Shown here in pieces: positions 18,704 through 50,500 of a stretch of 64,000 nt of DNA; within the stretch, counting starts at the first letter, position 1, and each line of letters starts with the position of its first letter. A program made the translations under genes and the position numbers. The stretch is from Bolinopsis microptera (taxonomy: Eukaryota; Ctenophora; Tentaculata; Lobata; Bolinopsidae), in contig NC_087076.1 of assembly GCF_026151205.1 (NCBI RefSeq), positions 1-64,000 on the forward strand, in the 5' to 3' direction. A model generated the notes under the pieces. It ran no database searches, had not been told where the DNA came from, and saw only the letters and a list, made by a program, of their open reading frames with translations.

Positions 18704-18711
18704 ATAGCTGT

Positions 18712-24781: not shown

Positions 24782-24789
24782 ATAGCTGT

Positions 24790-25566
24790 TATCTCCTCCT
24801 CTTTTTAGACAGGTATAATAGCTGTTATCTCCTCCTCTTTTTAAACAGGTATAATAGCTGTTATCTCTCCTCTTTTTAGACAGGTATAATAGCTGTTATC
24901 TCCTCCTCTTTTTAGACAGGTATAATAGCTGTTATCTCCTCCTCTTTTTAGACAAGTATAATAGCTGTTATCTCCTTCTCTTTTTAGACAGGTACAATAG
25001 CTGTTATATCCTCCTCTTTTTAGACAGGTATAATAGCTGTTATCTCCTCCTCTTTTTAGACAGGTATAATAGCTGTTATCTCCTCCTCTTTTTAGACAGG
25101 TATAATAGCTGTTATCTCCTCCTCTTTTTAAACAGGTATATTAGCTGTTATCTCCTCCTCTTTTTAGACAGGTATAATAGCTGTTATCTCCTCCTCTTTT
25201 TAGACAGGTATAATAGCTGTTATCTCCTCCTCTTTTTAGACAGGTATAATAGCTGTTATCTCCTCCTCTTTTAAACAGGTATAATAGCTGTTATCTCCTC
25301 CTCTTTTTAGACAGGTATAATATCTGTTATCTCCTCCTCTTTTTAGACAGGTATAATAGCTGTTATCTCCTCCTCTTTTTAGACAGGTATAATAGCTGTT
25401 ATCTCCTCCTCTTTTTAGACAGGTATAATAGCTGTTATCTCCTTCTCTTTTTAGACAGGTATAATAGCTGTTATCTCCTCCTCTTTTTAGACAGGTATAA
25501 TAGCTGTTATCTCGTCCTCTTTTTAGACAGGTATAATAGCTGTTATCTCCTCCTCTTTTTAGACAG
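24790..25566 (+). repeat. 36-bp tandem array, right part, ending at a splice acceptor
   Basis: About 21-22 copies of the same 36-bp unit as 18397-18703. The final copy's 'tcctcctctttttagacag' is the acceptor of the exon starting at 25567. The whole array is therefore a ladder of duplicated acceptor sequences abutting a real exon. Confidence 0.95.
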
Positions 25567-28412
25567 GTGCTCCGGGAGGCAGCCCGTCGGCAAGAAGGAG
25601 GAGGATAAAAGTGCTGCCAAAGTCGGAGTCAGAGGAAATGAAACCTGATGAGGTGTTTGAAGTATCTGCTGGGGACGATCCTAACAAGAAGAAACCCTTT
25701 GCTAATGGTATAGATATAATATATTATATACCTTTGCTAATGGTATAGTCGTATAGATATAATATATTATATACCGTTTATAGAAATGATTCTATTTGTT
25801 CATTTGAAGTTGAAGATATTGGCAAATTAAAAAAATAGTGTTATCTACATAACCCAACTTATCATATCCCCTTGGTGCAGTACAGGCCCCCGTTAGAATC
25901 CTCCCAACAAACTGTGACGCGTCCACAATATGGGAGCAAGCTAAAGCCATGCAAGCGCGGAGGAAAGGGAGTAACCCTTCAGCAGAGCAGGAGGACGATA
26001 GTTTCTTACCTGACACTCCTCCAGAGGACAGGGACCCTGATGCTATAATACAAGTGGTGAGAGGGAACTACTTATTACAGCCCCCCCCCCCCCCAGGTAC
26101 CCTGATGCTATTATACAAGTGGTGAGAGGGAACTACTTATTACAGCCCCCCCCCCCCCCCCCCAGGGACCCTGATGCTATTATACAAGTGGTGAGAGGGA
26201 ACTACTTATTACAGCCCCCCCCCCCCCCCCCCAGGGACCCTGATGCTATTATACAAGTGGTGAGAGGGAACTACTTATTACAGCCCCCCCCCCCCCCCCC
26301 CCAGGGACCCTGATGCTATTATACAAGTGGTGAGAGGGAACTACTTATTACAGCCCCCCCCCCCCCCCCAGGGACCCTGATGCTATTATACAAGTGGTGA
26401 GAGGGAACTACTTATTACAGCCCCCCCCCCCCCCAGGGACCCTGATGCTATTATACAAGTGGTGAGAGGGAACTACTTATTACAGCCCCCCCCCCCCCCC
26501 AGGGACCCTGATGCTATTATACAAGTGGTGAGAGGGAACTACTTATTACAGCCCCCCCCCCCCCCCCAGGGACCCTGATGCTATTATACAAGTGGTGAGA
26601 GGGAACTACTTATTACAGCCCCCCCCCCCCCCCCAGGGACCCTGATGCTATTATACAAGTGGTGAGAGGGAACTACTTATTACAGCCCCCCCCCCCCCCA
26701 GGGACCCTGATGCTATTATACAAGTGGTGAGAGGGAACTACTTATTACAGCCCCCCCCCCCCCCCCCAGGGACCCTGATGCTATTATACAAGTGGTGAGA
26801 GGGGAACTACTTATTACAGCCCCCCCCCCCCAGGGACCCTGATGCTATTATACAAGTGGTGAGAGGGAACTACTTATTACAGCCCCCCCCCCCCCCCCCA
26901 GGGACCCTGATGCTATTATACAAGTGGTGAGAGGGAACTACTTATTACAGCCCCCCCCCCCCCCCAGGGACCCTGATGCTATTATACAAGTGGTGAGAGG
27001 GAACTACTTATTACAGCCCCCCCCCCCCCCCCAGGGACCCTGATGCTATTATACAAGTGGTGAGAGGGAACTACTTATTACAGCCCCCCCCCCCCCCCCC
27101 CAGGGACCCTGATGCTATTATACAAGTGGTGAGAGGGAACTACTTATTACAGCCCCCCCCCCCCCCCCCCCCAGGGACCCTGATGCTATTATACAAGTGG
27201 TGAGAGGGAACTACTTATTACAGCCCCCCCCCCCCCCCCCCAGGGACCCTGATGCTATTATACAAGTGGTGAGAGGGAACTACTTATTACAGCCCCCCCC
27301 CCCCCAGGGATCCTGATGCTATTATACAAGTGGTGAGAGGGAACTACTTATTACAGCCCCCCCCCCCCCAGGGACCCTGATGCTATTATACAAGTGGTGA
27401 GAGGGAACTACTTATTACAGCCCCCCCCCCCCCCCCCAGGGACCCTGATGCTATTATACAAGTGGTGAGAGGGAACTACTTATTACAGCCCCCCCCCCCC
27501 CCCCCCCCCCCCCAGGGACCCTGATGCTATTATACAAGTGGTGAGAGGGAACTACTTATTACAGCCCCCCCCCCCCCCAGGGACCCTGATGCTATTATAC
27601 AAGTGGTGAGAGGGAACTACTTATTCCGCCCCCCCCCCCCCCCAGGGACCCTGATGCTATTATACAAGTGGTGAGAGGGAACTACTTATTCCGCCCCCCC
27701 CCCCTGATTATAATAATAATAATTATAATCTAAGGAGTATGTTATATTAACACCCTGTATTTCAGTGTCGAGATCACCCTTATAAATGGGATGTGTACCA
27801 GACAGGGGTCTGGGTTAAAAGTTTCGGACTCCCAGATGTAGCAGAAGTGTTCGAACACCATGATATCAAGGGAGAGCATCTCAAATACATCAGGTACCTT
27901 TCAAAATATATTAATATTATATATATTAGAATATAGGTTTTTTTCCAATTTTGACCCGGGGATATACTTTAATATACTTAAATATGGTTGCCTCCCCCCA
28001 CCCCCCCCCCCCCCCTCCCCGTGTAATAAAAAAGCAACGAGTTACAAAGTAATTAGCAAAGTAATTAGCAAAGTAATTTACAAAGTAATTGGCAAAGTGA
28101 TTAACAAAATAATTAGCAAAGTAATTAACAAAGTAATTAGCAAAGTGATTAACAAAATAATTAGCATAGTAATTAACAAAGTAATTAACAAAGTAATTAA
28201 CAAACTAATTAACAAACTAATTAACAAACTAATTAACAAACTAATTAACAAACTAATTAACAAACTAATTAACAAACTAATTAACAAAGTAATTACCTGG
28301 CAGCACGGAGGACCTGCGGGGTATAGGTATAACTGACGAGGGGAGTCTAACCCGAATAGCGAAGGAAATTACCAGACTTCTGACGAAATACGACAGCACT
28401 GGGCACGTGTAA
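25567..28412 (+). CDS. SAM-domain protein, 3' exons (spliced)
   Basis: Four plus-strand exons join in consistent phase: 25567-25707, 25881-26056, 27766-27893 and 28304-28406 (or to the TAA at 28410-28412). The first exon has a basic cluster (ARRRRIKVLPK) followed by acidic residues; the second is polar and ends 'RDPDAIIQV'. The third and fourth together form a sterile alpha motif domain: 'DVYQTGVWVKSFGLPDVAEVF', 'EHHDIKGEHLKYI', then across the intron 'TEDLRGIGITDEG' and 'RIAKEITRLLTKY'. SAM domains mediate protein-protein or RNA contacts; the partner here is unknown. Upstream exons were not found. All four boundaries carry tandem repeats. The last exon ends GGGCAC|GTGTAAG, which is both a plausible donor and an in-frame GTG-TAA, so the gene may end here; an AATAAA lies at 28927-28932. 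I do not recognise the gene's name. Confidence 0.75.
25693..25775 (+). repeat. two-copy duplication spanning a splice donor
   Basis: 'cctttgctaatggtatag' followed by a TA-rich stretch ending 'ttatatacc' occurs twice (from about 25697 and from about 25732). The first copy holds the end of the 25567-25707 exon and its donor (AATG|GTATAG); the second copy repeats exon end and donor. Confidence 0.85.
26031..27705 (+). repeat. ~66-bp array (about 25 copies) with poly-C, on a splice donor
   Basis: Unit: 'ggaccctgatgctattata' + 'caagtggtgagagggaact' + 'acttattacag' followed by 12 to 24 C and 'ag'. The first copy is the 3' end of the exon 25881-26056 (coding DPDAIIQV) with its donor GTG|GTGAGAG. Each later copy has a C tract ending in CAG, then 25 nt of former exon, then the donor again, and so looks like a self-contained micro-exon. 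Unit length varies mainly through the C tract. Confidence 0.95.
28040..28295 (+). repeat. short AATTAACAAA/AATTAGCAAA array before an acceptor
   Basis: About 25 copies of 9-12-bp units (aattaacaaa, aattagcaaagt), becoming homogeneous towards the right. The array ends directly at 'gtaattacctggcag', the acceptor of the exon at 28304. Open frames in it are repeat artefacts. Confidence 0.9.
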
Positions 28413-28556
28413 GCTCGCACTGGGCACGAGTAAGCTCGCACTGGACACGTGTAAGCTCGCACTGGGCACGTGTAAGCTCGCACTGGGCACGTGTAAGCTC
28501 GCACTGGGCACGTACGTAAGCTTGCACTGGGCACGAGTAAGCTCGCACTGGGCTCG
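28397..28556 (+). repeat. 21-bp array (about 8 copies) on a splice donor/stop
   Basis: Unit 'cactgggcacgtgtaagctcg', 21 bp. The first copy is the 3' end of the SAM exon with GGGCAC|GTGTAAG. Each unit contains CACGTG or a close variant and an in-frame TAA. Because 21 is a multiple of three, every copy keeps the same stop phase. Confidence 0.9.
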
Positions 28557-29348: not shown

Positions 29349-30333
29349 CAAATAATTTCCGACAACATGCAGCTAAAATTGTCTATATCTAACTCAGTTC
29401 ATAATATTACTCGATAATAGTTATTTTATTCTGATATATGGAAGAAAAGAATAGTTTGTAAGTGAGGGAGGAAAAGGAAGAGTTATATTATACATTATAT
29501 ATGGACACGTTCATTGAAGTTTGAGGATATTGGTAAATATTAGTGACCCTACTGAATGGCACGATGATGTAAAATGTGTCACACTATGACACTATATAAA
29601 CCCTTCATGGTTAGGATAATCGTTTCATCCTCTAGATAAACTTTGTCGCATAACGATATCTTTATCAGACGATAAGATATCGCTTAAATGCGGCCGGCAG
29701 TGAGTTGTAAACTTTGTCACACTATAAAAACGTGACAGAGTTTATATGGACCCCTTGTTGCCGTGTTTGACCAAATTTTCGAATTTCCAATTTATAGGAT
29801 AGTTGCATATGACTATTATCTACATATTTAGCGACTTTTTACGTTAAATTGTAGCATCATGTAAACTCCGTCACACATTTAAGAAATTTATATGAGGGAT
29901 GTTTATGACATCCTGACAAGAAATGCCGAATAATCTAGCATTATTTTGTGAGCTGAATGTGTTTGGAATTGTTCACATATTTCATTGTTATAGGCAAATA
30001 CAAATACAGAAGGCAGAAATAGGTAAATTTAGTCACATAAATTTGTATGATATCTCAACATGTGTGAAATTGAGTAAATATTAGTATACCAACTTAAACA
30101 CCCTATATTACGTACTATGGATCAATTAACAATATTTCAACCATACGCCGGTCATATAAATTATTATATGGCAGTGATATGTTAACATTGGATAAATTTC
30201 AACACCTGAAAGGGGTAAAAATTTGTAAATTTCGTCACAAAAAAATATGATAACTTTATTTGCTATTTGTTGGCAAAATAACTAGTTTATCGACATAGGT
30301 AATATGGTGATAAAGTAACATTATATCATAATC

Positions 30334-31000
30334 GAGGTATGATTCTTCAAAATAGGGGGCAAAAAATGTAAATTTCGTCACATACGTCATTTTAAAATTT
30401 AGATACATTTTCTTTCATATCAATAGTCCTTATTATAGTTGGAATGGATTTATACAAGAAATGTAGAAACCCATGCCAATTTTTCATCACATTGAAATTA
30501 TACTGTTGGGCAGAAAAAGTGAATTCTGTCACATTTCAGTAACTTAGTAAAATTAAACTCAGCATTGTTAAACTTGAGTTCTAATTTGCTAAACAATAAT
30601 CAACCAATAATTCCTGGAAGAAAATTGAATTTTAACTGAGGTATGGTTCTTCAAAATAGGGGCAAGAAATGTAAAATTCGTCACATACGTCATTTTAAAA
30701 TTTAGATAGATTTTCTTTCATATCAATAGTCCTTATTATAGTTGGAATGGATTTATACAAGAAATGTAGAAACCCATGCCAATTTTTCATCACATTGAAA
30801 TTATTGTACTGTTGGGGCAGAAAAGGTGAATTCTGTCACATTTCAGTAACTTAGTAAAATTAAACTCAGCATCATTAAACTTGAGTTCTAATTTGCTGAA
30901 CAATAATCAACCAATAATTCCTGGAAGAACATTGAATTCTAACCGAGGTATGGTTCTTCAAAATAGGGTCAAGAAATGTAAATTTCGTCACATACGCGTA
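30334..31000 (+). repeat. ~305-bp tandem duplication inside the TIR element
   Basis: Segments starting 'gaggtatgattcttcaaaat' at about 30334, 'gaggtatggttcttcaaaat' at about 30640 and again at about 30945 (partial) are over 90% alike by eye. Each contains two of the GTAAATTTCGTCACA-type motifs. Confidence 0.85.
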
Positions 31001-31154
31001 CGTCATTGTAAAATTTAGATACAATTTCTTTCACGTGAACAGTCCTAATTACAGTCTGAAATGATTAATTCAGAGGAAATATAAAAACCCCTGCCCATTT
31101 TATAATGTACGTAATATTATGTTAATCACAGACTATTTCATTCTATAATCATTG

Positions 31155-31382
31155 TTTCCAAATTTAACCTATTTACGATGTCGTATATCATTTTGTGATG
31201 ATGTTTATATCAACTGCCCTATACTTGAATCAACTGTATCCGTGTATCGTCCTTATATAGAGTTTTCCCGCAAAATTTAACCTATTTACGATGTCGTATC
31301 ATTTTGTGACGATGTTTACATCAACTGCCCTATACTTGAATCAACTGTATCCGTGTATCGTCCTTAAATAGAGTTTTCCCGC
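31155..31382 (+). repeat. ~117-bp direct duplication inside the TIR element
   Basis: 'aatttaacctatttacgatg' through 'agagttttcccgc' occurs twice in tandem with few differences. Confidence 0.85.
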
Positions 31383-32019
31383 CTTCCGAAACAAAATCAG
31401 ATATAAATGATTATATATCAAATTCCATATAATGTGACAGAATTTACATCATTTCCCAATAACCAAGTGTATATATTTGCTAACTTTTCAAAACAACATA
31501 TTTTAGGGCTATGATTGGCAGAAGAACCATCAAATAATGAGTTGAAAGGGTTTTGAGGACACCTCACAGTAGAAAAGAGGTCTCGTATTCTGAGTGTGAC
31601 AAAGTTTACGAAATATTGCCTTAAAGCCGTTCGATCACTGCCCTTTAACCAATGTTGAATCATAATTGTTATATTGACCTAATCTACTATATTTTAGACC
31701 AAAGAATGCTGATCGGGCAGCTATGGTAAACAATGTCACAAAAATGTGACATTTTTTACATTATAGTGCCTAAAAGCAATACATTTTATTTCTGAGCGGT
31801 GCATATGGGAGTATGGGTCACGTGGCTAATGTTCAGAACTTATGAACATGTTAGATTAATAGATTCTAAAATTAAGCCACTATCGTCGAAAACGCTATTT
31901 TAGAAATTTACCAATATCCTCAAACTTCAATGAACGTGTCCATATACACTATATATACACTGTATATTACGCACTATTGTATTGATGTAATAACGAGGTA
32001 TGGCCGCAGTTCCTTTAAA

Positions 32020-35000
32020 TTACAAACCGTTCAGATCCATTATTTCCTCCTCATCGTCCATATCACTGATTACAGAATCAGATAACTCCTCCTCCTCCTC
32101 CTCCTCCTCCTCACTACTGCTGGTGCTCTCTTCATATTGACCCAGAGAACTGAGAGGAGTTGGAGGGAAGAGACCTGAGAACTCCTCTACCTGCTCCATT
32201 CTGAGGAACATTAAACACACCTGCCAAGGAAGAGAAGGGTCAAACAAGCAACTAAACTGTGAACATTGTAGCATATTTACTGGGACAGTAACCAGCATGC
32301 AAATTGCAAGGTAAGTTTACTTACCTTACAGTGAACAGCATGCAAATTGCAAGGTAACTTACCTTGACGATGTCTCTGACATATCCGTCGTACTTGTGGG
32401 ACCGACCAAAAACCAACTTCCTTAGTGCTATGTCTTTTGTCTTCGGATGTCGTATCACTCTACTACTGCAGCACATACATGTTAGATTGAAATCGTGGAA
32501 TCTCTGAACGACAGTCAAATTAACATGATAACGTAGATTCCAAATTTGATCAATTGCGCGCGCGATTTACAAGAACGGTTACACGATTTGTATACTAAAA
32601 TGTTTTCGCGGCGTACGTTTGTAGTACAAGGAATTAATAGTGGCCACTAGAAGGGATCCAATTTCATTAGTGAAATCTCATTTTATTTTTCTGCCCTAAA
32701 CTAATGAAGTCTTTCTTGACGTTAACCACATTCAACGTGAAATTAAGTTTTTTCATTAAAGTAGCAACCCAAAGTTAATGAGATAGGTCAGGTTTACTAG
32801 CAGAGCTCAGGTTTGTGAATGTCATGAGGGCCACCGACAGAGGATATACTTAGAGGATAATAAAGATACCTACGGTTGCCATGACTACAGCTAAATATAT
32901 CAGGACACCTCATACACTGGTGTGTCAGTTCTCACGGCCTGTGTTAGCTTATTACTCTAGTAGCAGGGAGGGGTCGGTATGTTACCTACCTACGTGTAGG
33001 TATATAAGCTTATTGGGAATACTTGAACTGATAAGTTCAAGTATTCAAGTGTTAAGGTCACTGGTGAGCGGTCTCAGGTGTGGTATTTGCAATGCACTGA
33101 CCTCTGTAGAGTATGGAGTAGTAAGCGTAGAGTAAGAGTGAAGGAGTGGTGTAGAGGCAGAGATCCGGTGTAGCCAGTGTCTAGTGAGTGCTCCTTTATT
33201 GCAGTGTTAACAAGTGCTACACAGTCCTCCAGGGTTAGGTGCAGTGAGTGCAGCATTCGTAACTCACTCAGCAACACTACTGTGCTGTGTAGTGTAGTGG
33301 AGTCCTGTAGTGGAGTACAACTAATTAACAACTAATTAACAACTAATTAACAACTAATTAACAACTAATTAACAACTTATTAACAACTAATTACCGTCTT
33401 ATTAACAACTAATTAACAACTAATTAACAACTAATTAACAACTTATTAACAACTAATTACCGTCTTATTAACAACTAATTAACAACTAATTAACAACTAA
33501 TTAACAACTTATTAACAACTAATTACCGTCTTATTAACAACTAATTAACAACTAATTAACAACTAATTAACAACTTATTAACAACTAATTAACAACTAAT
33601 TAACTAACCGTTAAATGAGCTAATTGACTGAAAGGTTGCCAGGTAGACTTGCCACTGCACATCAACCAACGCTCATCTAGCTTCTGAGATACAGTTGCTT
33701 ATATTAGATCAGATACTGTGGTTAACATTATTTTAATTTAATCCATTACCAATTACCATGCAGACATTGTTTTGAATCATCTTACACTAAGCTAAAGATT
33801 GTGTGAATTGTTTGATTATTGAGTAACCGGCCACTACCTGACACCTGTACTTACAGTAGAGAATAGCATGGTACTACCTGTACTTACAGTAGAGAATAGC
33901 ATGGTACCCGGTCACTACCTGTACTTACAGTAGAGAATAGCATGGTATGAGCACCTGTCATAGTGACAGGTACTAGTTTGTTATCTACATTCTTAGTCGT
34001 CATGGCAACTACAGGGCACAGATGCAGGGTATACCCATTAACTCCAACAACCTAGGTTAGGGATTGTAATATTTGAAAACAAGTTCTATATTATTATATC
34101 ATAGAGAAAAGATACATAAATTAAAAGCCATTAATTTGAGAAATTACCAGATAAAGATAACTGGTAAAGAAAACTGTTTCTTATTTATACAAATGGTATC
34201 CACTAGCAGAACTAAAAATTAGATGACTAAAGACACTTAGAACTGGATGCTCTGGTTACACACTAAGTGGGGGAGGTACTACTACTAGTGGGGTAAGCTA
34301 CTCTAACCCCCCCCCCCCCCTAACCAATAACTTGCAGCTCTAACTCTAACCCCCCCCCCCGGCCCTATCAAGACTCTAACCTCTATGTAAGTGTCACATC
34401 TGAAGACAGAGAGATTAGGAAGAGTTAGTTTGACAAGGCAGGTAACTTGCTTTAACAATGTGGAGGACTCTATAGTGTTGTAGTCCTTATCTCTCACTAG
34501 GTAGTGACCTCCCACGTGTGTTTTTAAAACCTGTTATAATTACTGGTAACACCAGGGTAATACTGGTTACCGTTAGCAAACAAACTCCCATTATGAAGCA
34601 GTACCCATAAATTATCATTTTCACAAAAACCATTTCGGAGGTGCAACATGGAGCTTCCTCTGCAGTGTGATTGCACATTGCCACCATGGTGATACCATGG
34701 TGACACCATGGTAACACCATGGTAACACCATGGTAACACAACGGTAACACCACAGTAACACCAGGGTAACACCATAGTAACACCATGGTAACATCAGGGT
34801 AACACAACGGTAACACCGCGGTAACACTATGGTGTTATATGCGGAGTACAAGTAGTCCCTCCCTTACCTGTGTGTCTGATTGTTTGACAGGACAGAGCAG
34901 TGTTACAATGTTTGTATTGTACCCCCTCCCTTACCTGTGTGTCTGATTGTTTGACAGGACAGAGCAGTGTTACAATGTTTGTATTGTACCCCCTCCCTTA

Positions 35001-38000
35001 CCTGTGTGTCTGATTGTTTGACAGGACAGAGCAGTGTTACAATGTTTGTATTGTACCCTCTCCCTTACCTGTGTGTCTGATTGTTTGACAGGACAGAGCA
35101 GTGTTACAATGTTTGTATTGTACCCCCTCCCTTACCTGTGTGTCTGATTGTTTGACAGGACAGAGCAGTGTTACAATGTTTGTATTGTACCCCCTCCCTT
35201 ACCTGTGTGTCTGATTGTTTGACAGGACAGAGCAGTGTTACAATGTTTGTATTGTACCCCCTCCCTTACCTGTGTGTCTGATTGTTTGACAGGACAGAGC
35301 AGTGTTACAATGTTTGTATTGTAGCCCCTCTCCCTTACCTGTGTGTCTGATTGTTTGACAGGACAGAGCAGTGTTACAATGTTTGTATTGTACCCCCTCC
35401 CTTACCTGTGTGTCTGATTGTTTGACAGGACAGAGCAGTGTTACAATGTTTGTATTGTACCCTCTCCCTTACCTGTGTGTCTGATTGTTTGACAGGACAG
35501 AGCAGTGTTACAATGTTTGTATTGTACCCCCTCCCTTACCTGTGTGTCTGATTGTTTGACAGGACAGAGCAGTGTTACAATGTTTGTATTGTACCCCCTC
35601 CCTTACCTGTGTGTCTGATTGTTTGACAGGACAGAGCAGTGTTACAATGTTTGTATTGTAGCCCCTCTCCCTTACCTGTGTGTCTGATTGTTTGACAGGA
35701 CAGAGCAGTGTTACAATGTTTGTATTGTACCCCCTCCCTTACCTGTGTGTCTGATTGTTTGACAGGACAGAGCAGTGTTACAATGTTTGTATTGTACCCC
35801 CTCCCTTACCTGTGTGTCTGATTGTTTGACAGGACAGAGCAGTGTTACAATGTTTGTATTGTACCCCCTCCCTTACCTGTGTGTCTGATTGTTTGACAGG
35901 ACAGAGCAGTGTTACAATGTTTGTATTGTACCCCCTCCCTTACCTGTGTGTCTGATTGTTTGACAGGACAGAGCAGTGTTACAATGTTTGTATTGTACCC
36001 TCTCCCTTACCTGTGTGTCTGATTGTTTGACAGGACAGAGCAGTGTTACAATGTTTGTATTGTACCCCCTCCCTTACCTGTGTGTCTGATTGTTTGACAG
36101 GACAGAGCAGTGTTACAATGTTTGTATTGTACCCTCTCCCTTACCTGTGTGTCTGATTGTTTGACAGGACAGAGCAGTGTTACAATGTTTGTATTGTACC
36201 CCCTCCCTTACCTGTGTGTCTGATTGTTTGACAGGACAGAGCAGTGTTACAATGTTTGTATTGTAGCCCCTCTCCCTTACCTGTGTGTCTGATTGTTTGA
36301 CAGGACAGAGCAGTGTTACAATGTTTGTATTGTACCCCCTCCCTTACCTGTGTGTCTGATTGTTTGACAGGACAGAGCAGTGTTACAATGTTTGTATTGT
36401 ACCCTCTCCCTTACCTGTGTGTCTGATTGTTTGACAGGACAGAGCAGTGTTACAATGTTTGTATTGTACCCCCTCCCTTACCTGTGTGTCTGATTGTTTG
36501 ACAGGACAGAGCAGTGTTACAATGTTTGTATTGTAGCCCCTCTCCCTTACCTGTGTGTCTGATTGTTTGACAGGACAGAGCAGTGTTACAATGTTTGTAT
36601 TGTACCCCCTCCCTTACCTGTGTGTCTGATTGTTTGACAGGACAGAGCAGTGTTACAATGTTTGTATTGTACCCTCTCCCTTACCTGTGTGTCTGATTGT
36701 TTGACAGGACAGAGCAGTGTTACAATGTTTGTATTGTACCCCCTCCCTTACCTGTGTGTCTGATTGTTTGACAGGACAGAGCAGTGTTACAATGTTTGTA
36801 TTGTACCCCCTCCCTTACCTGTGTGTCTGATTGTTTGACAGGACAGAGCAGTGTTACAATGTTTGTATTGTACCCTCTCCCTTACCTGTGTGTCTGATTG
36901 TTTGACAGGACAGAGCAGTGTTACAATGTTTGTATTGTACCCCCTCCCTTACCTGTGTGTCTGATTGTTTGACAGGACAGAGCAGTGTTACAATGTTTGT
37001 ATTGTACCCTCTCCCTTACCTGTGTGTCTGATTGTTTGACAGGACAGAGCAGTGTTACAATGTTTGTATTGTACCCCCTCCCTTACCTGTGTGTCTGATT
37101 GTTTGACAGGACAGAGCAGTGTTACAATGTTTGTATTGTACCCTCTCCCTTACCTGTGTGTCTGATTGTTTGACAGGACAGAGCAGTGTTACAATGTTTG
37201 TATTGTACCCCCTCCCTTACCTGTGTGTCTGATTGTTTGACAGGACAGAGCAGTGTTACAATGTTTGTATTGTAGCCCCTCTCCCTTACCTGTGTGTCTG
37301 ATTGTTTGACAGGACAGAGCAGTGTTACAATGTTTGTATTGTACCCCCCCTCCCTTACCTGTGTGTCTGATTGTTTGACAGGACAGAGCAGTGTTACAAT
37401 GTTTGTATTGTACCCCCTCCCTTACCTGTGTGTCTGATTGTTTGACAGGACAGAGCAGTGTTACAATGTTTGTATTGTACCCCCTCCCTTACCTGTGTGT
37501 CTGATTGTTTGACAGGACAGAGCAGTGTTACAATGTTTGTATTGTACCCCCTCCCTTACCTGTGTGTCTGATTGTTTGACAGGACAGAGCAGTGTTACAA
37601 TGTTTGTATTGTACCCCCTCCCTTACCTGTGTGTCTGATTGTTTGACAGGACAGAGCAGTGTTACAATGTTTGTATTGTACCCTCTCCCTTACCTGTGTG
37701 TCTGATTGTTTGACAGGACAGAGCAGTGTTACAATGTTTGTATTGTACCCCCTCCCTTACCTGTGTGTCTGATTGTTTGACAGGACAGAGCAGTGTTACA
37801 ATGTTTGTATTGTACCCTCTCCCTTACCTGTGTGTCTGATTGTTTGACAGGACAGAGCAATGTTACAATGTTTGTATTGTACCCCCTCCCTTACCTGTGT
37901 GTCTGATTGTTTGACAGGACAGAGCAGTGTTACAATGTTTGTATTGTACCCCCTCCCTTACCTGTGTGTCTGATTGTTTGACAGGACAGAGCAGTGTTAC

Positions 38001-40525
38001 AATGTTTGTATTGTACCCCCTCCCTTACCTGTGTGTCTGATTGTTTGACAGGACAGAGCAGTGTTACAATGTTTGTATTGTACCCCCTCCCTTACCTGTG
38101 TGTCTGATTGTTTGACAGGACAGAGCAGTGTTACAATGTTTGTATTGTACCCTCTCCCTTACCTGTGTGTCTGATTGTTTGACAGGACAGAGCAGTGTTA
38201 CAATGTTTGTATTGTACCCCCTCCCTTACCTGTGTGTCTGATTGTTTGACAGGACAGAGCAGTGTTACAATGTTTGTATTGTAGCCCCTCTCCCTTACCT
38301 GTGTGTCTGATTGTTTGACAGGACAGAGCAGTGTTACAATGTTTGTATTGTACCCCCTCCCTTACCTGTGTGTCTGATTGTTTGACAGGACAGAGCAGTG
38401 TTACAATGTTTGTATTGTACCCCCTCCCTTACCTGTGTGTCTGATTGTTTGACAGGACAGAGCAGTGTTACAATGTTTGTATTGTACCCCCTCCCTTACC
38501 TGTGTGTCTGATTGTTTGACAGGACAGAGCAGTGTTACAATGTTTGTATTGTAGCCCCTCCCTTACCTGTGTGTCTGATTGTTTGACAGGACAGAGCAAT
38601 GTTACAATGTTTGTATTGTACCCCCTCTCCACTGTGTTCCCTAACATTGTGCTCCTCCCCCACTCCACCTCCGGACAGCGCCGCGCAGCAACTACACGTG
38701 CAGGGTCGTGTCGTGATATCACCTCATACTTTATATTGTTCTGTAAACACACCAGTTACACAATTAATACCTTAAAATAAAATTGAATATTACTCTGCCA
38801 CTGAACTAACATTGGAATTTAGAAATTAGTAAATATGTGAATATGCATTGTAAGATTACGAAGTAGAGTGATGGTTGTCATGGTGTTACCATGGTGTTAC
38901 CATGGTGTTACCATGGTGTTACCATGGTGTTACCATGGTGTTACCATGGTGTTACCATGGTGTCGCACCTGTTTCTTGTCTAATAGTTTCAACACTTGCT
39001 CTATCAAGTCATCAGAACACTGTCCCCTCATCTCCCACTCAGAGTAGCTTTCCTTCAGAGTCTGTAGCAACCTGGTTATTAAGTTATTAGACTATATATC
39101 AATAATTATCATACACTCCCTTGTAAAAATACCTGGTATAATAAGTAATTATCAATAATTATCAATAATTATCAATAATTATCAATAATTATCAATAATT
39201 ATCAATAATTATCAATAATTATTACGCGCAGGCCTCGCTTGTAAAAATAGGTCAGTCCTACCTAGGTTACACGTATTTGGTCCTACCTAGGTTACACGTA
39301 TTTGGTCCTACCTAGGTTCCACGTATTTGGTCCTACCTAGGTTCCACGTATTTGGTCCTACCTAGGTTCCACGTATTTGGTCCTACCTAGGTTCCGCGTA
39401 TTTGGTCCTACCTAGGTTCCACGTATTTGGTCCTACCTAGGTTCAACGTATTTGGTCCTACTTGGGTTCCACGTATTTGGTCCTACCTAGGTTCCACGTA
39501 TTTGGTCCTACCTAGGTTCAACGTATTTGGTCCTACTTGGGTTCCACGTATTTGGTCCTACCTAGGTTCCACGTATTTGGTCCTACCTGGGTTCCACGTA
39601 TTTGGTCCTACTTGGGTTCCACGTATTTGGTCCTACCGAGGTTCCACGTATTTGGTCCTACCTAGGTTCCACGTATTTGGTCCTACCTAGGTTCCACGTA
39701 TTTGGTCCTACCTAGGTTCAACGTATTTGGTCCTACTTGGGTTCCACGTATTTGGTCCTACCTAGGTTCCACGTATTTGGTCCTACCTGGGTTCCACGTA
39801 TTTGGTCCTACTTGGGTTCCACGTATTTGGTCCTATCTAGGTTACACGTATTTTGTCCTACCTAGGTTCCACGTATTTGGTCCTATCTAGGTTACACGTA
39901 TTTGGTCCTACCTGGGTTCCACGTATTTGGTCCTACCTAGGTTCCACGTATTTGGTCCTACCTAGGTTCCACGTATTTGGTCCTACCTAGGTTCCACGTA
40001 TTTGGTCCTACCTAGGTTCCACGTATTTGGTCCTACCTAGGTTCCACGTATTTGGTCCTACCTAGATTCCACGTATTTGGTCCTACCTAGGTTCCACGTA
40101 TTTGGTCCTACCTAGGTTCCACGTATTTGGTCCTACCTAGGTTCCACGTATTTGGTCCTACCTAGGTTCCACGTATTTGGTCCTACCTAGGTTCCGCGTA
40201 TTTGGTCCTATCTAGGTTCCACGTATTTGGTCCTACCTAGGTTCCACGTATTTGGTCCTACCTAGGTTCCGCGTATTTGGTCCTATCTAGGTTCCACGTA
40301 TTTGGTCCTACCTAGGTTCCACGTATTTGGTCCTACCTAGGTTCCACCTATTTGGTCCTACCTAGGTTCCACGTATTTGGTCCTACCTAGGTTCCACGTA
40401 TTTGGTCCTACCTAGGTTCCACGTATTTGGTCCGAGCTGGAGCTGTTTTGGGTCTGACAGGTAAGAATCTGAGTTTGCGGGACTGTATTTGAGAAGCTCG
40501 TGTGCAAACACCTCGTGACATGGTC
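32020..40525 (-). CDS. multi-exon gene of unknown function, acidic C-terminus
   Basis: Nine minus-strand exons with coding-like sequence and mostly matching phase: 40412-40525, 38969-39071, 38567-38740, 34531-34657, 34381-34399, 33929-33954, 33102-33284, 32363-32501, 32020-32220 (stop TAA at 32020-32022). Together they give about 360 residues. Leucine-rich helical stretches ('LLSELRMLHSLHLTLEDC', 'LRLLLHTLQRFHDFNL') suggest an all-helical scaffold. The last exon has nine consecutive glutamates and ends 'DDEEEIMDLNGL'. Two exons are only 19 and 26 nt. Phase fits throughout except at 40412 and 38567; there it fits if the exon is extended by exactly one repeat unit (to 40387 and 38500). The 5' end is not identified and must lie before 41522. 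I do not recognise the family; no enzymatic motif is visible. Confidence 0.65.
32298..32365 (-). repeat. duplication at a splice donor
   Basis: 'agcatgcaaattgcaaggtaa' appears twice (about 32296 and 32338), next to the donor of exon 32363-32501. On the minus strand the duplicated piece contains a GTAAGT-like donor start. Confidence 0.7.
33321..33605. repeat. 11-bp AACTAATTAAC array with higher-order structure
   Basis: Tandem 'aactaattaac' units interrupted regularly by 'aacttattaac' and 'aattaccgtctt'. Three or four higher-order units of about 66 bp result. It lies in an intron about 35 bp from the acceptor of exon 33102-33284. Confidence 0.9.
33843..33950 (-). repeat. three-copy 33-41-bp repeat on a micro-exon donor
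   Basis: 'acctgtacttacagtagag' + 'aatagcatggta' occurs three times. Read on the minus strand, each copy contains most of the 26-nt exon (33929-33954) and its donor CTACT|GTAAGT. Confidence 0.85.
34682..34845 (+). repeat. CCATGGTAACA minisatellite beside an acceptor
   Basis: About 14 imperfect copies of an 11-12-bp unit 'ccatggtaacac'. Its left end lies about 20 bp from the acceptor of minus-strand exon 34531-34657. The same unit, inverted, forms the array at 38877-38965, which lies on the donor of another exon of the same gene. Confidence 0.9.
34856..38625 (-). repeat. 67-bp array, about 55 copies, built on a splice donor
   Basis: A 3.75-kb array of a 67-bp unit; in plus-strand reading 'cccttacctgtgtgtctgat' + 'tgtttgacaggacagagcag' + 'tgttacaatgtttgtattgta' + C-rich. 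On the minus strand each unit is the last ~57 nt of exon 38567-38740 (coding '..YNTNIVTLLCPVKQSDTQ') followed by CAG|GTAAGGGAG. Copies are nearly identical; variation is mostly in the C-rich joint (ccccct, ccctct, gcccctct). The homogeneity implies recent expansion. Confidence 0.97.
38877..38965 (-). repeat. 11-bp TGTTACCATGG array just after a donor
   Basis: About 8 copies of 'tgttaccatgg'. In gene orientation it starts a few bases after the donor AAACAG|GTGCGA of exon 38969-39071. Confidence 0.9.
39134..39221. repeat. 10-bp ATCAATAATT array
   Basis: About nine perfect copies of 'atcaataatt' in the intron upstream (gene sense) of exon 38969-39071. Confidence 0.95.
39255..40433 (-). repeat. 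25-bp array, about 47 copies, built on a splice donor
   Basis: Unit 'ggtcctacctaggttccacg' + 'tattt'. On the minus strand each copy is the last 20 or so nt of exon 40412-40525 plus the donor CCTAG|GTAGGA. Variants (cctagg/cttggg/cctggg; ttcc/ttac/ttca/ttcg) are unevenly distributed, and blocks of about 150-300 bp are themselves repeated. Plus-strand frames through it are artefacts. Confidence 0.95.
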
Positions 40526-41521: not shown

Positions 41522-44500
41522 CTAAAACCCATCATCGTCTTGTAGCAGCTTACTCCACCGTGTTTTCTCAGACTCCAGACTAATAGCGTCAGATCTACTG
41601 CGGACTATGTAGAGAGCTACTCCGAACAAACAGAACACTGTTAGTGTGCTCACCAGTACTGTTGTTAGTCCTGCAAACATTATTAAAATATATAGTGATT
41701 ATATACACATTTTACACTGACAGAAGGATTAATAAACTATCAAGAGATATGAAAATAATAACAATCAACAAGCAAAGGAGAATGAGTACTTACTTTCAGT
41801 GAGTAGTTTAAGTAAGTAGGAGGAATCAGCACAAAGTGTTTCCAGCTGCTCAGGAGTTGCACTGTACTCTTCTGAGGAGCATAACATCTAGTCACGTGCA
41901 AAGGGGGTCACGTGCAAAGGGGGTCACGTGCAAAGGGGGTCACGAGCAAAGGGGGTCACGTGCAAAGGGGGTCACGTGCAAAGGGGGTCATGAGCAAAGG
42001 GGGTCATGAGCAAAGGGGGTCACGAGCAAAGGGGGTCACGAGCAAAGGGGGTCACGTGCAAAAGGGGTCACGAGCAAAGGGGGTCACGTGCAAAGGGGGT
42101 CACGTGCAAATGGGGTCACGTGCAAAGGGGTCACGTGCAAATGGGGTCACGTGCAAAGGGGTCACTTGCAAAGGGGGTCACGTGCAAAGAGGGTCAAGGT
42201 TTTTTGCCAAGGTTTTTTAGATAGTTGTAATCTACCTGATCAAAACCAGGTACTAAGATAATATGGATAAAAGTAACCTGTGATAGCAAGGAATGTGTCT
42301 GCGTTACACTTTACTGTGCAGTTCCTAACTTTAACCTGAACATATTTTTATGCTAACTGCTACTAAACATATTGTTCAATTTAATGTTTGGATAATCATT
42401 AATACATGTGCGACGTGTTTACCGTAATTTCTGTTTAGAATATCAAATCAACATAAACCATATCAAACGTTTCAGGAGACCTGAAGAATGCGTAAGTTAC
42501 GGCCTTGTTAAAACACAAACCAATTAATATTGAATAATATTAGTTAGTAATGAGCTCACCTCCTTGGTTCTGAGGTTCTGTGTCTTTTTGACAACTACAT
42601 AAGTTCCATTATCAGAGCCCCACACCTCCAGTTGTAACATGGTGGCAGGTACTGGCTCGTAACCCTTGAAGATACCTAGCGAGTTCTGCACCTGCGGAGA
42701 AATAGTCATTAAGTGAACAAGACCCCCCCTGATCAACTCGCACTGCCCCCCCCCCCCCCTGAACAACTCGCACTGCCCTGAGGAGCAAGCAACCATTATA
42801 GTTCACTGTTTCAGGGGTGCAATGAGAATTTGATTTAGATTTTACAAACTATTTGCACTTTCTGTTATCAGCATCTTCAAAATTTGCGTCCATTTTTGCA
42901 TCAACAACATTTTAAAAATCCCCCCTAGCTCTGGGAAATTTTAAATATTTATTGGTGTTAGAAGACTCTTATGTAGGCGTTCCTTGTTTCTTCATAGATC
43001 AAAGACATCTGAGTCAAACCATGTGAGACAGATATCTTAGGAAGATGGTAATTGCAATGAGGATTGAAAACAAGCATCTGCTACTGGCTTATCTCTGGGG
43101 GGGGGGGGGGGGGATAAATTGCATGGGGCGGGGGGGGGGGGGGGGCCTTATCTCTCATTAGATGTTCACAGTTTTCAGAATTTAGTGTATTATTCGAATT
43201 GGTCCAATTGGCCCTTTTAAATACATGTTCCGTTTATTAGATTTCATCTTTCTAGCGTTAAGTAAAATATATATAGTAAGTTAAATATTCACATTTTTGA
43301 ATTTTCCTTTTAGATCTATGAAGCATATTCTTACGGCTGTATTGAAATATTATGCGCTAAATTCATAATTTATGTCAATATATATATATATTTACATAAT
43401 ATGCGAAAAATAAAACTTTAAAAGTTAACTTTTTCACCGTCCGTCAGACAGTTGTGAATGATCTAATGCTCTAATGAGGGGGTACGTGCCCTCTAATGTG
43501 ATCAGGGGTCCCGTCTCCCCACAACTATTTACAATTTCTAGCTATCTTTGAAGTCAGGTACCCTGCAGGTAAATTCCTTTATTAGTTGGTAACCATTGCG
43601 AGGGTATGTTTAATATTACTTTATCATATTATATTGTTTATGCTGATATGTAGCGTAGTGTGGTAGTGCGTGATAATGCTCCCCCGTTAAATATAGGCTT
43701 TAAATAGCTCGTGGACCATGATATTATGAGTCCTTTGTTTATCTTGCTGGAAGTTGGAAGCCATTCCAACATTTTATGTAAACCCTCTCTCTCTCTCTCC
43801 TCCGTGAGCTCTACTCACTCTCTTTTCGTCCCTCATCTAATTTGTCGCTAATTTCAGCTCCGTTATGTTTAAGACGTTTATACTGGTGACTGCTCTGTGT
43901 TTCACACTCGGCTACGCAGAGATTAAAGATAAAGATTACTCCATAACCGTTATATCTGGCTCATACGCCTTTAACATGGTAGTGTCTGGTCTTGCTGACG
44001 GTGACTCACTCCTTGAAGCAATGAATAAGGCTAAAACTGAAGAGAAATTTACGTGAGTAGTTGTTGTGTTATTTGCAAGAACGGCTCCGTGGTTATTGTT
44101 ACTACTACTGTGGTTATTGTTACTACTACTACTACTACTACCGTTGTTATTGTTACTACAATACTACTGTATTATGCATATTGTTACTATATATATTTCA
44201 CTTTTAACCGCAGTCATTTTCACGGGATATAATTAATTTTCACGTGATATAATTAATTAATAATTAATTGTTTTAAATGACTGTTAAAACTTATTAAAAA
44301 AGGCAAACAAATTATGGCTGAGCATGTTCGTAGATCACCTTAATTGTGACTTAAGTTTGCACTCTGGTGTATATTACTACTACTTTGTAGTCTAAAATGT
44401 TCCACGTCAGCAACTAAGCAACTAACACACGTTTACCACATTTTACGACTAATGTTTATAAGCCTTTTTTAAATGAGTGATATCAGTTACTAATTTAGAT

Positions 44501-47500
44501 TTACTAATCAGTTAGTTTATTAGTACTTTAGTATTGCAACACTGTCACGTGATAAGTATTGCACGTACCAATTCCACTGTCACGTGATAAGTATTGCACG
44601 TGCCAATTCCACTGTCACGTGATTAGTATTGCACGTGCCAATTCCACTGTCACGTGATAAGTATTGCACGTACCAATTCCACTGTCACGTGATTAGTATT
44701 GCACGTGCCAATTCCACTGTCACGTGATAAGTATTGCACGTGCCAATTCCACTGTCACGTGATAAGTATTGCACGTGCCAATTCCACTGTCACGTGATAA
44801 GTATTGCACGTACCAATTCCACTGTCACGTGATAAGTATTGCACGTGCCAATTCCACTGTCACGTGATTAGTATTGCACGTGCCAATTCCACTGTCACGT
44901 GATAAGTATTGCACGTACCAATTCCACTGTCACGTGATTAGTATTGCACGTGCCAATTCCACTGTCACGTGATAAGTATTGCACGTACCAATTCCACTGT
45001 CACGTGATAAGTATTGCACGTACCAATTCCACTGTCACGTGATAAGTATTGCACGTACCAATTCCACTGTCACGTGATAAGTATTGCACGTGCCAATTCC
45101 ACTGTCACGTGATAAGTATTGCACGTACCAATTCCACTGTCACGTGATAAGTATTGCACGTGCCAATTCCACTGTCACGTGATTAGTATTGCACGTGCCA
45201 ATTCCACTGTCACGTGATAAGTATTGCACGTACCAATTCCACTGTCACGTGATTAGTATTGCACGTGCCAATTCCACTGTCACGTGATAAGTATTGCACG
45301 TACCAATTCCACTGTCACGTGATAAGTATTGCACGTACCAATTCCACTGTCACGTGATAAGTATTGCACGTGCCAATTCCACTGTCACGTGATAAGTATT
45401 GCACGTACCAATTCCACTGTCACGTGATTAGTATTGCACGTGCCAATTCCACTGTCACGTGATAAGTATTGCACGTACCAATTCCACTGTCACGTGATTA
45501 GTATTGCACGTGCCAATTCCACTGTCACGTGATAAGTATTGCACGTACCAATTCCACTGTCACGTGATAAGTATTGCACGTACCAATTCCACTGTCACGT
45601 GATAAGTATTGCACGTACCAATTCCACTGTCACGTGATAAGTATTGCACGTGCCAATTCCACTGTCACGTGATAAGTATTGCACGTACCAATTCCACTGT
45701 CACGTGATTAGTATTGCACGTGCCAATTCCACTGTCACGTGATAAGTATTGCACGTACCAATTCCACTGTCACGTGATAAGTATTGCACGTGCCAATTCC
45801 ACTGTCACGTGATAAGTATTGCACGTACCAATTCCACTGTCACGTGATAAGTATTGCACGTACCAATTCCACTGTCACGTGATAAGTATTGCACGTGCCA
45901 ATTCCACTGTCACGTGATAAGTATTGCACGTGCCAATTCCACTGTCACGTGATAAGTATTGCACGTACCAATTCCACTGTCACGTGATTAGTATTGCACG
46001 TGCCAATTCCACTGTCACGTGATAAGTATTGCACGTACCAATTCCACTGTCACGTGATAAGTATTGCACGTGCCAATTCCACTGTCACGTGATAAGTATT
46101 GCACGTACCAATTCCACTGTCACGTGATAAGTATTGCACGTACCAATTCCACTGTCACGTGATAAGTATTGCACGTGCCAATTCCACTGTCACGTGATAA
46201 GTATTGCACGTGCCAATTCCACTGTCACGTGATAAGTATTGCACGTGCCAATTCCACTGTCACGTGATAAGTATTGCACAACGAATAGTTCTGAAGTTGC
46301 ATACTGAGATTTTTTCTGGAGCCGCCTTAGTGAAAAGCAGAATATTGGGTTGCAATAAAATGGGAAATTTAAATAACAGCACATGTACTGTCAGGTGATA
46401 GTACTAAAATAAACACGTTTAATATTATAGAATATTGAGATATAAACCTCACCAGGTTTGAAATGTCTGAGGACTCAGTAACCTCTATAAACGCTGTGGA
46501 ACCTGAAGACGCAGGAACCCATTTTTGGCAGGCAGCTGCAAAGATTGGAGACATGTGGGAACCACTAGCTCATGATATCAGCAAGGGGGTACACGCGGAC
46601 GAGTACAAGTGGACTATTGTAGAAATACAGACAGGTGGGGGAATTATCCAGTTCAAATATATAACATTCTAATTGTCGAGATACAGACAGGTGGGGGAAT
46701 CATCCAGTTCAAATATATAACATTCTAATTGTAGAAATACAGACAGGTGGGGGAATTATCCAGTTCAAATATATAACATTCTAATTGTCGAGATACAGAC
46801 AGGTGGGGGAATTATCCAGTTCAAATATATAACATTCTAATAGTCGAGATACAGACAGGTGGGGGAATTATCCAGTTCAAATATATAACATTCTAATTGT
46901 CGAAATACAGACAGGTGGGGGAATTATCCAGTTCAAATATATAACATTCTAAGATTAATCTTGTAATCTCACTTCTGGTAAAATAATGAAATATAATGAC
47001 TGTCTTTATAATACAGATGCAAATGTAAGTGGCAGTACAGTTACAAGTCCTGGCTTCTGGATGATCACTACTGCTATCTTAGCTTCTCTCCTTACCTGGT
47101 AACACGCATTATCTACTTTAATATCTCATCAATGAACCCACGTTTGATAAATAATAGGGTTGCACCACCCCCCTCACAATAATTTGGTCCGACCCCCCCC
47201 CCCCCCCCCCCACAATAATGGGGTCCGACCCCCCCTCCACAATAATGGGGTCCGACCCCCCCCCCCCCCCCCCCCACAATAATGTATGATCGCGGTTGAG
47301 AATGTAATATGTATAATACCTAATACCTATTATTATACTCCTTAATTTCAGGGACTTCTAAAGGCACGGTGTTGTTACCAGCATGGTCACTAAGGTCACT
47401 AAGGTCACGTGACACATTATCACGTGACACATTATCTGTAGTGAACATTCTTTTATTGGAGCTAGACTTCGAATTTTGGGGAAAATGTTGTATAAAGGAC

Positions 47501-50500
47501 GGGAGTGTGATAATAAAGCATGAGACTTCTTGGTTGATTGTCATGTTATCTTTTTATTTTTGTAAGCTTCTACAAAAAGATATAATATAATATTGGACGA
47601 TAATATATGTGTAATAAACTATCTGTATGATATGCCTCATTACATCAATACCCGTACTTAGTTAATGTAATGAATATTGTTTAGTATTGTTTACTAGCTA
47701 GATGTGTGTTACATTCCTACACCAGAGTAGTAGACTCTAGTAGACTTCTGCTAGTCTGTACGTTAATATGACGGTGTATTAAGGTATGTAACACCTATAT
47801 TACCCCCCACACCCCCTCCGGCTGTTTCTATTTGTCCTACCGTTATCTGAACTCGCAACCCTTCTCTTACTGTGGCCGGCAACTTAACGATTATCTGGAG
47901 TTAAATCTACTCATTGCCAGGGGTGAACACCCTATCGAACTACTTATTGAGTACGGGGGAATGATACATATCATGATTAGAGAAACAGAGCAGGGTATTA
48001 TACAGTGCAACGAGAAGGGAGTCATCATGAGGTTATTATTGAGGTCTGAAAGTCTGCGACCATGTGGTGGGGGGGGGGGGGGGCCGGGGGAGGGGGGGGT
48101 ACAGCAGTACTGGTGAAATCTTCGGTCATAAAATGAATCCCATCTTTTGACATATTTTGTAAACTAGAAAGGGCAGAACATAAAGAAAATTAAATTGCTT
48201 TATCGATAATATTAGAATTTTCATTTTTGGAATATAATTGGTTTTTTCACGGAGTTGAACTTTTTCATTCGATACAAGGAACAACTTATCGGAGAAAATA
48301 GATCTGCTATAAAAACCAAAATATCTTTCTACAAGTTTATTCCTAATCTAGATTTCGACCCAAAATCTTGACGAAATCCCCCGGCAAAAACCGAACCTTT
48401 TTTGTGGTCAATTTCAGCTCGCAAATGGAGTTGGAACCTCGCGAAAAGGATAGGAATAGGAGACTGCATTCTTAAATTTTTTATAATTAACGTCGGAAGA
48501 GAGGAAAAATAAACGTTAGAATAATGGCGTAATTTCATCACTTGTTTAAAACATAGTTTAGTGATACGAAAAGTTTGTTTAGCAGGAGCTTTCAAAGTAC
48601 ATGACGTGTAAATCGTCTTTCATCATTGTTTGACTACGTCGTTGCGTAGCAACAGCAGGATATTGCACGTGCGCGAGCAACACAGATTAGCAACGCGCGT
48701 TTCCATGCTTATGCAATAACACGTCATGACTAGCTCATGTTTACGCTCACGCTACAACTATTCATAACTTTGGTTGTGATTAACATTTGTTAATACGGTA
48801 AAAAGTATCGTTTATGGAATCCGAATACTTACAACGTTGTCGTCATTGTAAAACAAAAATCCATACTTTCTACAGTAAAGAGAAATTAAAACATAACTGA
48901 TTTTTAAAATTTCCTCGAACAAAGCTTTCGACTAGCGGGTTTTTAGTGTTCTTTTATTTTTATCTCAAGCAGCTGGGGTAGTAATCATAATTATAATATG
49001 TGAATAATATGTGAATAATATATGGTAGATTATGATACTAGTAAGTAAAAGAGAACTAACCCAAGCTAGTGTCTCTCCAGTGCAAGTGTAGATTACAAGT
49101 AGTGCGCCTGTTGTACACTTCCTGTTCTTACATTCTAATACTTTAGTGTCCAGCTCACTCATTGCTTTTCCTGAATATTAGGTCAATATTTAGTATCCAG
49201 CTCACTCATTGCTTTTCCTGAATATTAGGTACTTTAGTATCCAGCTCACTCATTGCTTTTCCTGAATATTAGGTACTTTAGTATCCAGCTCACTCATTGC
49301 TTTTCCTGAATATAAGCTCAATATTTGGAGTGTCGCCTCAATTTTCGCGAATTTTGTGTCGTAAAAATCGCGAAAATAAATTCCCCGCACAAATCGATGG
49401 TTTTACAGTAAATAGTATATTTATTAACAAAAAGGCCAAAATGCTCTGGTTGACCATACAAATTTGGGTGATGAGCAAGTTAATAGTTTTCGTAATTTCA
49501 TTTTCTGAACGGACATAATCCTGAACGGCATTTCAAAAACCTTAAATAAACTTTTCATTTTTTGGCGATTAGTTTTTAAATTTCAGCAAATAATGAACGA
49601 GGAAGTCAAAGAAAGTTATGCCACAACTTGTTTCTATTTATCCAATGATATCGTTTATTTAGTTCGATAGGAATTGAAATTTACCGAAATTTAAAAGTAG
49701 TCATAGCCTGGGTAATAAGTTTGTAAGAGAATACATTTGGGTAAAAGGAACGGAATTTGATTTGTACGGACATAATATGAACGCTACTAAACGCTAGGGC
49801 CGCCAGCGTCGGAATAATGTCCGTTAAGGTAAGAGTAGTGGTGTGTAGTCAGTTTACTTACCTGTCTCATGAGAAGAAGAATGTGCAATATATGCTGCTG
49901 AGTAAAAACGTGATGCCCATATAAGGATGCTGCTGAGTAAACACGCGATGCCCATATAAGGAATGCAGCTGAGTAAACACGTGATGCCCATATAAGGAAT
50001 GCTGCTGAGGGCTTATCAAACAGTGCTCATGGGAATCCTGAGAATATCAGATTAAATGAAGAGGAATAAGAAATAAGTGAGATATGATGCTACCAACTGA
50101 TACGATATAATATATCAGTATTATATGAGCATTTTTAATATGTACCAGCTAGAGCTCTCACACTGTCCATACTCCAAAACATTTTGCTCTTCCAGATCAA
50201 GTCGTGTCCTTGTTTGAGAATATCTTCGTAAACAGTCAGAGCTTTTTCTTGGACCAACTCGTAGAAACCCTGGAGATCGAAACTCAGACTATTTTATTAG
50301 TTACCTCATAATATCTTATAAAGAATATTATAGATGTGAACAAGGTTAGATAATATCTTATAAAGAACATATATGTGTACAAGCTCCCTTACCTGATATT
50401 GGTGAACTTTGAACAGTTGCTCTAACATATTGATTCCGTTGCCGTCATATCCTACTTTGTTATACAGGTCGTATATCTTGTCCTGAGAAGCAATGGTAAT

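Follow-up and report, generated by a model that had tools for sequence, protein, structure and literature searches.

The stretch analyzed here, called the window, comprises the first 64 kb of contig C5 in the Bolinopsis microptera assembly (264.65 Mb in 232 contigs, with ~97% of the assembly in thirteen contigs). Its central part holds gene models labeled A to E, and tandem arrays lie in and around them. The original prediction, made from this sequence, listed twelve places at which such arrays contain or abut an exon boundary and regarded the consistent capture of junctions as a system not known to have been described. We find that arrays do capture real junctions, in exons supported by homology in conserved genes elsewhere in the genome. 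The pattern is real and of a described kind, i.e., the mirages known from amphioxus, which are minisatellites lying over exon–intron boundaries, and the comb jellies are very likely a new phylum for them.

Arrays were called with Tandem Repeats Finder (TRF), and exon ends in the window were set by the reading frame and the splice consensus (Table 1). The arrays themselves are real: for 11 of the 12 predicted places, one lies on the spot or no more than 10 bp away. The exception was 25707, for which no TRF row scoring at least 40 was obtained and two imperfect copies are visible by reading. Two donors, 26056 and 46634, are spanned by an array with the frame open on both sides. The unit of the ~65-bp array in gene A consists of 28 nt of exon, the donor, and intron sequence, and the frame continues to the SAM exon. 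The intron at this donor is 1709 bp long, and 126 bp remain after the array is collapsed. The joined protein of gene A matches Pfam SAM_1 with E = 6.9e-10, which fixes the next junction at 27893/28303, and the stop codon follows in frame at 28410–28412. Likewise, the unit of the 56-bp array begins with 19 nt of exon, the frame resumes in the next exon at 47016, and the intron measures 120 bp after collapse.

Table 1. Arrays and exons of the window (a slash within a sequence marks an exon boundary)
Feature	Position	Strand	Copies	Relation to exon or junction	Source
36-bp array, other part	18392..18711	+	8.9		TRF
36-bp array	24782..25568	+	21.9	unit with TTTTTAG/ACAG/GTATA	TRF
Imperfect duplication	25672..25772 (ends approximate)	+	2	round donor 25707 (CTAATG/GTATAG)	read by eye
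~65-bp array	26029..27704	+	25	variable C-tract; spans donor 26056	TRF
Gene A, final two exons	27766..28412	+		SAM domain over junction; donor 27893, acceptor 28303	
12-bp array	28044..28295	+	21	ends 8 bp before SAM-supported acceptor (place 28304)	TRF
21-bp array	28396..28553	+		begins over gene A stop codon (place 28406)	TRF
43-bp array	32285..32365	-	2	touches donor 32362; absent from original prediction	TRF
67-bp array	34857..38627	-	56	unit with strong donor CACACAG/GTAAGG (38566; place 38567)	TRF
11-bp array	38879..38963	-		~5 bp into intron past donor 38968 (place 38969)	TRF
25-bp array	39255..40433	-	47	unit with CCTAG/GTAGGAC (place 40412)	TRF
16-bp array	41891..42196	-	19	19 bp from acceptor 41871 (place 41887)	TRF
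Exon start and acceptor	42629..42719	-	single-copy in window	tandem with 89-bp period in near-copy	
35-bp array	44540..46279	+	50	within intron, no junction touched: counter-example	TRF
56-bp array	46616..46952	+	6	spans donor 46634	TRF
44-bp array	49139..49313	-	3.9	unit with ATATTCAG/GAAAAGCAATGAG (place 49170)	TRF

At four other places (25567, 38567, 49170, and 40412) the boundary claim is plausible, as the units resemble an exon end with AG or GT, although in exons without homology support. The likely acceptor of gene A exon 1 (25562 or 25566), an exon read as an open frame, comes from the last copy of the 36-bp array; the exon at the 67-bp array likewise has no homology support. The 44-bp unit may carry an acceptor or, alternatively, the surroundings of a start codon, and for the 25-bp array no exon evidence was found. 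The claim is not supported at the remaining six places. The arrays at 28304, 38969, and 41887 end 5–19 bp away from the junction, 25707 is a two-copy duplication only, and exon evidence was sought at 33929 and none was found. The array at 28406 lies over a stop codon, and because its first unit contains the in-frame stop of the SAM exon, no splice site is required there; GTGTAAG in this unit is a donor-like candidate, but the best donor score in the unit is 4.1, and among 43 scored kinesin donors only 3 do not exceed it. For genes B, C, D, and E, the pieces tried against Pfam and PDB gave nothing above the cut-off. Units made of an exon end plus a splice signal are found in several of the arrays, with parallels in homology-supported genes elsewhere. 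Consistent placement is not supported, as several of the listed arrays lie only near a junction and six others of considerable size in the same interval are in contact with no recognized one (33317–33604, 34682–34833, 39146–39222, 40877–41305, 44540–46279, and 47202–47265).

Nor do the arrays lack common sequence, as had been proposed. Those at 34682–34833 and 38879–38963 belong to the same 11-bp family in opposite orientations, and this motif (CATGGTGTTAC and its complement) forms further arrays elsewhere, at numerous sites that cover about ten chromosomes among the matches listed. The two 36-bp arrays at 18392–18711 and 24782–25568 were once one continuous array, which was split by a transposon at ~18713–24780. 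This ~6-kb element has terminal inverted repeats (TGGTGGACCATGAGTATCACTAA) with TA at each end, carries telomere-like GTTAGG repeats as well as subterminal tandem arrays in inverted orientation, and is inserted within the 36-bp array.

Exons fixed by homology were found in two samples from the genome. For the first, 21 kinesin genes were taken from 120 Pfam PF00225 matches, and an intron was defined as the gap between neighboring domain matches that continue the PF00225 profile; large profile gaps were excluded, and 62 introns were obtained. The second consisted of 20 random stretches of 10 kb each. In the kinesins, arrays lie across a donor in L035 (53 bp, 8 copies) and L049 (38 bp, 2 copies), while two arrays are at a donor in L037 (21 bp, 30 copies, and 13 bp, 22 copies). 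An acceptor is crossed in L049 (21 bp, 25 copies), and L031 has an array at an exon end, in an intron outside the 62 counted because its profile gap is too large. An ARF-like GTPase (L010) has an array at a donor, and its Pfam match (E = 8.7e-10) is continuous over the array-bearing intron. A donor array is also present in an ALDH gene (L013), of which two exons are collinear with 6mvu/6mvr (E = 4.9e-9 and 0.055) and the homology of the second exon reaches the array edge, a one-sided support. In a zinc ADH (L022), with an ADH_N match across the intron (E = 2.1e-19), the array stops 5 nt before the acceptor. By eye, 17 of the 18 random-stretch arrays with at least five copies were inspected; three are junction cases with homology (one of them 5 nt short), three are candidates without homology (L018, L022:1624, and L014), and 11 have no evident exon. 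When 20 exons or open frames beside the random arrays were searched against Pfam, only two gave matches above the cut-off.

Mirages were reported in amphioxus Adh3, troponin C, the globins BflGb6 and BflGb9, and PGBD5, and the structure described there is the same as here, which contradicts the view that junction capture was undescribed (PMC3087553, PMC3902484). The units in B. microptera likewise consist of an exon end and a splice signal of real exons. The boundary is that of a real exon in L035, L049, and L010, where the homology is two-sided, and in L013, where it extends to the array edge; a boundary is also spanned, by a continuous frame, at 26056 and 46634 of the window. Both donors (L035, L049, L010, and L013) and an acceptor (L049) are captured, as in the amphioxus genes. 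For the amphioxus mirages, undisturbed regular splicing and, at Adh3, somatic instability are also given. Furthermore, supported cases here have units of 13–65 bp, against ~10–160 bp given for amphioxus, the exon itself is intact in both, and copy number and length vary between copies of a locus, here between the window and its near-copy (alleles or paralogs). Up to 30 copies are found at homology-supported junctions here, whereas three and six copies are given for the globin mirages. The host is a comb jelly, several unrelated conserved genes are affected in a small sample, and the arrays are known from sequence alone. Reports of mirages were found from amphioxus only in the literature surveyed, and no title or abstract on junction-spanning arrays in comb jellies was returned by our literature search (subscription papers lay outside its reach).

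The amphioxus globin study calls the mechanism of mirages unclear and proposes that they could create introns (PMC3087553, PMC3902484). The Rogers model, named in PMC3087553, explains intron gain by tandem duplication of exon sequence containing AGGT, and potato RdRp is given as a case of intron gain by tandem duplication in PMC4974935. The arrays here resemble this model in that splice signals are duplicated in tandem, so that the copies may offer cryptic sites for use. They differ in the age of the intron: that of the acceptor array in L049 agrees in position and phase with one in L039, which lacks this array and holds a TTAA microsatellite, so the L049 intron is probably older than its array, in the one case compared. 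Introners (PMC9860276) are also repetitive sequences with splice signals, whereas the arrays here are local and tandem, their units are mostly unrelated, and they do not look like a dispersed family inserted in exons. Of 93 array units, 88 are nonredundant, and the 11-bp family is dispersed in the form of arrays. Ordinary intronic minisatellites, or variable number tandem repeats, turn over by change of copy number. The arrays here share this turnover mechanism, but have units that extend over the junction. TRF repeats make up 13% of the genome of another comb jelly, Hormiphora (PMC8527503), which fits a high array load.

How fast such arrays change can be seen from a near-copy of the region at C5:756905–791583, which matches 25560–28420 and 38593–50345 of the window with 79–98% identity by segment and may be either a segmental duplication or a second haplotype left in the assembly where the contig ends. 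For 28.4–34.9 kb of the window, the only matches obtained in the near-copy search were copies of a dispersed element; this element (29482–31969, ~2.5 kb, with inverted ends) has at least dozens of matches with ~85–99% identity on many chromosomes. The 67-bp array occupies 3.8 kb (56 copies) in the window and ~6.5 kb (~95 copies) in the near-copy, the ~65-bp array 1.7 kb and ~4.8 kb, and the 16-bp array 0.3 kb and ~1.1–1.2 kb. Of the 11-bp array at 38879–38963, the near-copy has ~2.5 units. By contrast, the 35-bp array measures 1.74 kb in the window against ~0.25 kb in the near-copy, and the 25-bp array has 47 copies against one unit in the near-copy part examined, which excludes C5:776811–778472 (1.7 kb beside the unit). 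Two acceptor-carrying arrays exist in the near-copy alone. In one, found by eye in the near-copy sequence L008, the unit measures 33 bp, and the other has the 89-bp period over 42629–42719 of the window, placed at C5:781847–782287 from match coordinates. Arrays without a known junction are also new or enlarged in the near-copy, near 44089 and in a C-rich tract at 47150. These differences indicate that junction-spanning arrays arise and grow fast, alongside non-spanning ones. An assembly artefact was considered as the main cause and set aside, as the near-copy has related arrays of differing length.

We hypothesize, with fair confidence and from the sequence evidence, that the arrays are mirages produced by neutral growth in short introns, in which junction arrays survive when the copy on the exon side is usable. 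Tandem duplications of ~10–90 bp would arise at near-random places and would be amplified by slippage or unequal exchange. As introns are short, a duplicated unit would often overlap an intron end, and such a duplication would be tolerated since it leaves the exon intact. Where a donor is repeated, the first copy could serve in splicing, and where an acceptor is repeated, the last one; all other copies would become intron. Duplications deep in exons would be purged by selection, so the surviving arrays would look pinned to exon edges.

Chance placement was estimated for position within a short intron, and not for position in the genome. A unit of length p was dropped randomly on a collapsed intron of length I, and the chance of contact with one end is then ~(p+12)/(I+p+12). 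The cut-offs, all chosen by us, were a TRF score of 50, a period of at least 9, and a contact tolerance of 6 bp. In the clean window introns of 126 and 120 bp, a random 65- or 56-bp unit would touch either end with a chance of ~0.76 or ~0.72, which speaks against the need for a duplication mechanism aimed at junctions, as had been suggested. The median kinesin intron is 199 bp long (46 introns). The 30 arrays in the 62 kinesin introns make 5 junction contacts against 3.68 expected (P = 0.29), 4 at donors against 1.80 (P = 0.09) and 1 at acceptors against 1.80; L032/L033 and L045/L046 are near-identical kinesin copies, so the introns within each pair are not independent. These counts supersede an earlier one on 46 introns and 16 arrays (1 spanning and 2 abutting a donor, with 2.64 spans expected), in which the L035 period was overlong. 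In the window, seven arrays in seven introns touch a donor in 2 cases and an acceptor in 0, with 1.11 expected for each; one of these introns (B2–B3) has a misplaced donor without GT and contains no array. Taken as a whole, the arrays show no junction placement beyond chance. The paralogs L032 and L033 lie on C13 and are distinguished by a ~0.9-kb insertion in one intron, which carries inverted TAAGACAACATT / AATGTTGTCTTA repeats.

Of the rival explanations, the one that survives best, although we consider it unlikely, is that duplication or growth occurs preferentially at junctions, donors above all, as a consequence of transcription or splicing, with R-loops, breaks, U1, or stalled spliceosomes as possible agents. 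Several results lean this way and weigh against purely neutral growth. Kinesin arrays with at least five copies, a cut fixed after the data had been seen, touch a junction in 4 of 7 cases against 1.34 expected (P = 0.02), whereas those with fewer copies do so in 1 of 23 against 2.34. Adding the five high-copy window arrays gives junction contacts in 6 of 12 arrays, with 3.34 expected (P = 0.055). The 5 junction arrays in kinesin introns also exceed the 25 interior ones in length (Mann–Whitney P = 0.003) and in copy number (P = 0.02). In a genome-wide search for three CAGGTAAGT words at 15–45 bp spacing, with the reversed word as control, 431 matches were found against 0, while single words gave 2462 against 1212. 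For AAGGTAAGT triples the result was 432 against 0, with 1 single-copy word against 9 for its reverse (in a 200 kb sample only), and tandem CAGGTAAG gave 984 against 26. One array is counted many times in these matches, and among the first ~100 listed the separate places are 9 for CAGGTAAGT and ~5 for AAGGTAAGT; 9 places against 0 at the single-copy ratio of ~1.7 (array copies removed) correspond to a chance of ~0.014 by hand calculation. In the 88 units, donor scores of at least 8.5 occur 7 times against 2.98 expected (2 against 2.56 in the reversed sequence) and acceptor scores 7 times against 3.89 (0 against 2.45). Thus, arrays of at least five copies and consensus donors are placed marginally beyond chance.

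However, beyond the overall kinesin count and the deficit at kinesin acceptors, the reversed word is not a matched control, because donors are by nature intronic, where arrays are tolerated, and the reversed word occurs in exons and transposons too. The score excess is gone at a cut-off of 7 in 51 random units (donors 4 against 4.44, acceptors 5 against 5.26). In 38 random arrays there was no clear splice-motif excess in the units over shuffles or other genomic segments; the share at p ≤ 0.1 against shuffles and genomic segments was 0.13 and 0.16 for donors and 0.16 and 0.11 for acceptors. In the window, 6 of 22 units have a donor score within the top tenth of genomic segments. These motif tests have low power because real junctions score moderately (6.2 in L010). 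No 6-mer in the array units survives correction (best P 4e-4, with ~2000 possible). CACGTG is present in 7 of the 88 nonredundant units against 1.37 expected, which fails the same correction over all 6-mers; its bearers are the arrays at 28396, 41891, 44540, and 49892 in the window and units in L010, L012, and L014. Moreover, some of the largest arrays, such as 44540–46279, are distant from any known junction. It is therefore only tentatively, and against our own expectation, that we raise a junction-linked process amplifying edge-anchored repeats, donors foremost, with perhaps thousands of introns bearing long splice-site arrays. If true, the whole genome would be the scene of a natural experiment, still under way, on how splice sites are chosen and how introns grow.

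Less probable still is that selection retains the splice signal while the ends slip, so that edge arrays grow only with a usable site in each copy. In eight arrays, the splice dinucleotide of internal copies is changed at 0 of 338 sites against 106 of 7917 other sites, a difference not expected under purely neutral growth, but the 36-bp array was omitted after the data had been seen, and with all nine arrays the changes are 3 of 382 against 114 of 8658 (P = 0.49). There is no clear constraint on the dinucleotide in internal copies, and positions just inside introns are also occupied by arrays that do not reach the splice site (28044–28295 and 41891–42196). Finally, that the listed exons are unreal, GT and AG being so ubiquitous that any array fits an exon end, would explain the stop codon in the 28406 unit, the places 33929 and 40412, and the unremarkable motifs of the random-stretch units, but this is very improbable since homology that continues across array-bearing introns establishes the kinesin and ARF exons, and homology as far as the array edge the ALDH exon.

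Other parts of the window hold open frames of 551 and 902 aa (7931–9586 and 10553–13261) that by eye resemble non-LTR (long terminal repeat) retrotransposon reverse transcriptases, and a 188-bp satellite array of ~32 copies (54619–60559) broken by a run of 336 A. An 8-base word for spliced-leader ends gave four matches in the window and none in the arrays at issue. No connection to the arrays was found in the available part of a chromatin-loop paper (PMC12221973).

The neutral growth of mirages in short introns thus remains our preferred explanation for the arrays of B. microptera. Mirages in conserved genes of a ctenophore, far from the chordates, suggest that they arise in any genome that combines short introns with a high turnover of minisatellites. 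The ctenophore mirages represent many natural arrays of duplicated splice sites, in which the choice between copies and the growth and origin of introns can be studied.

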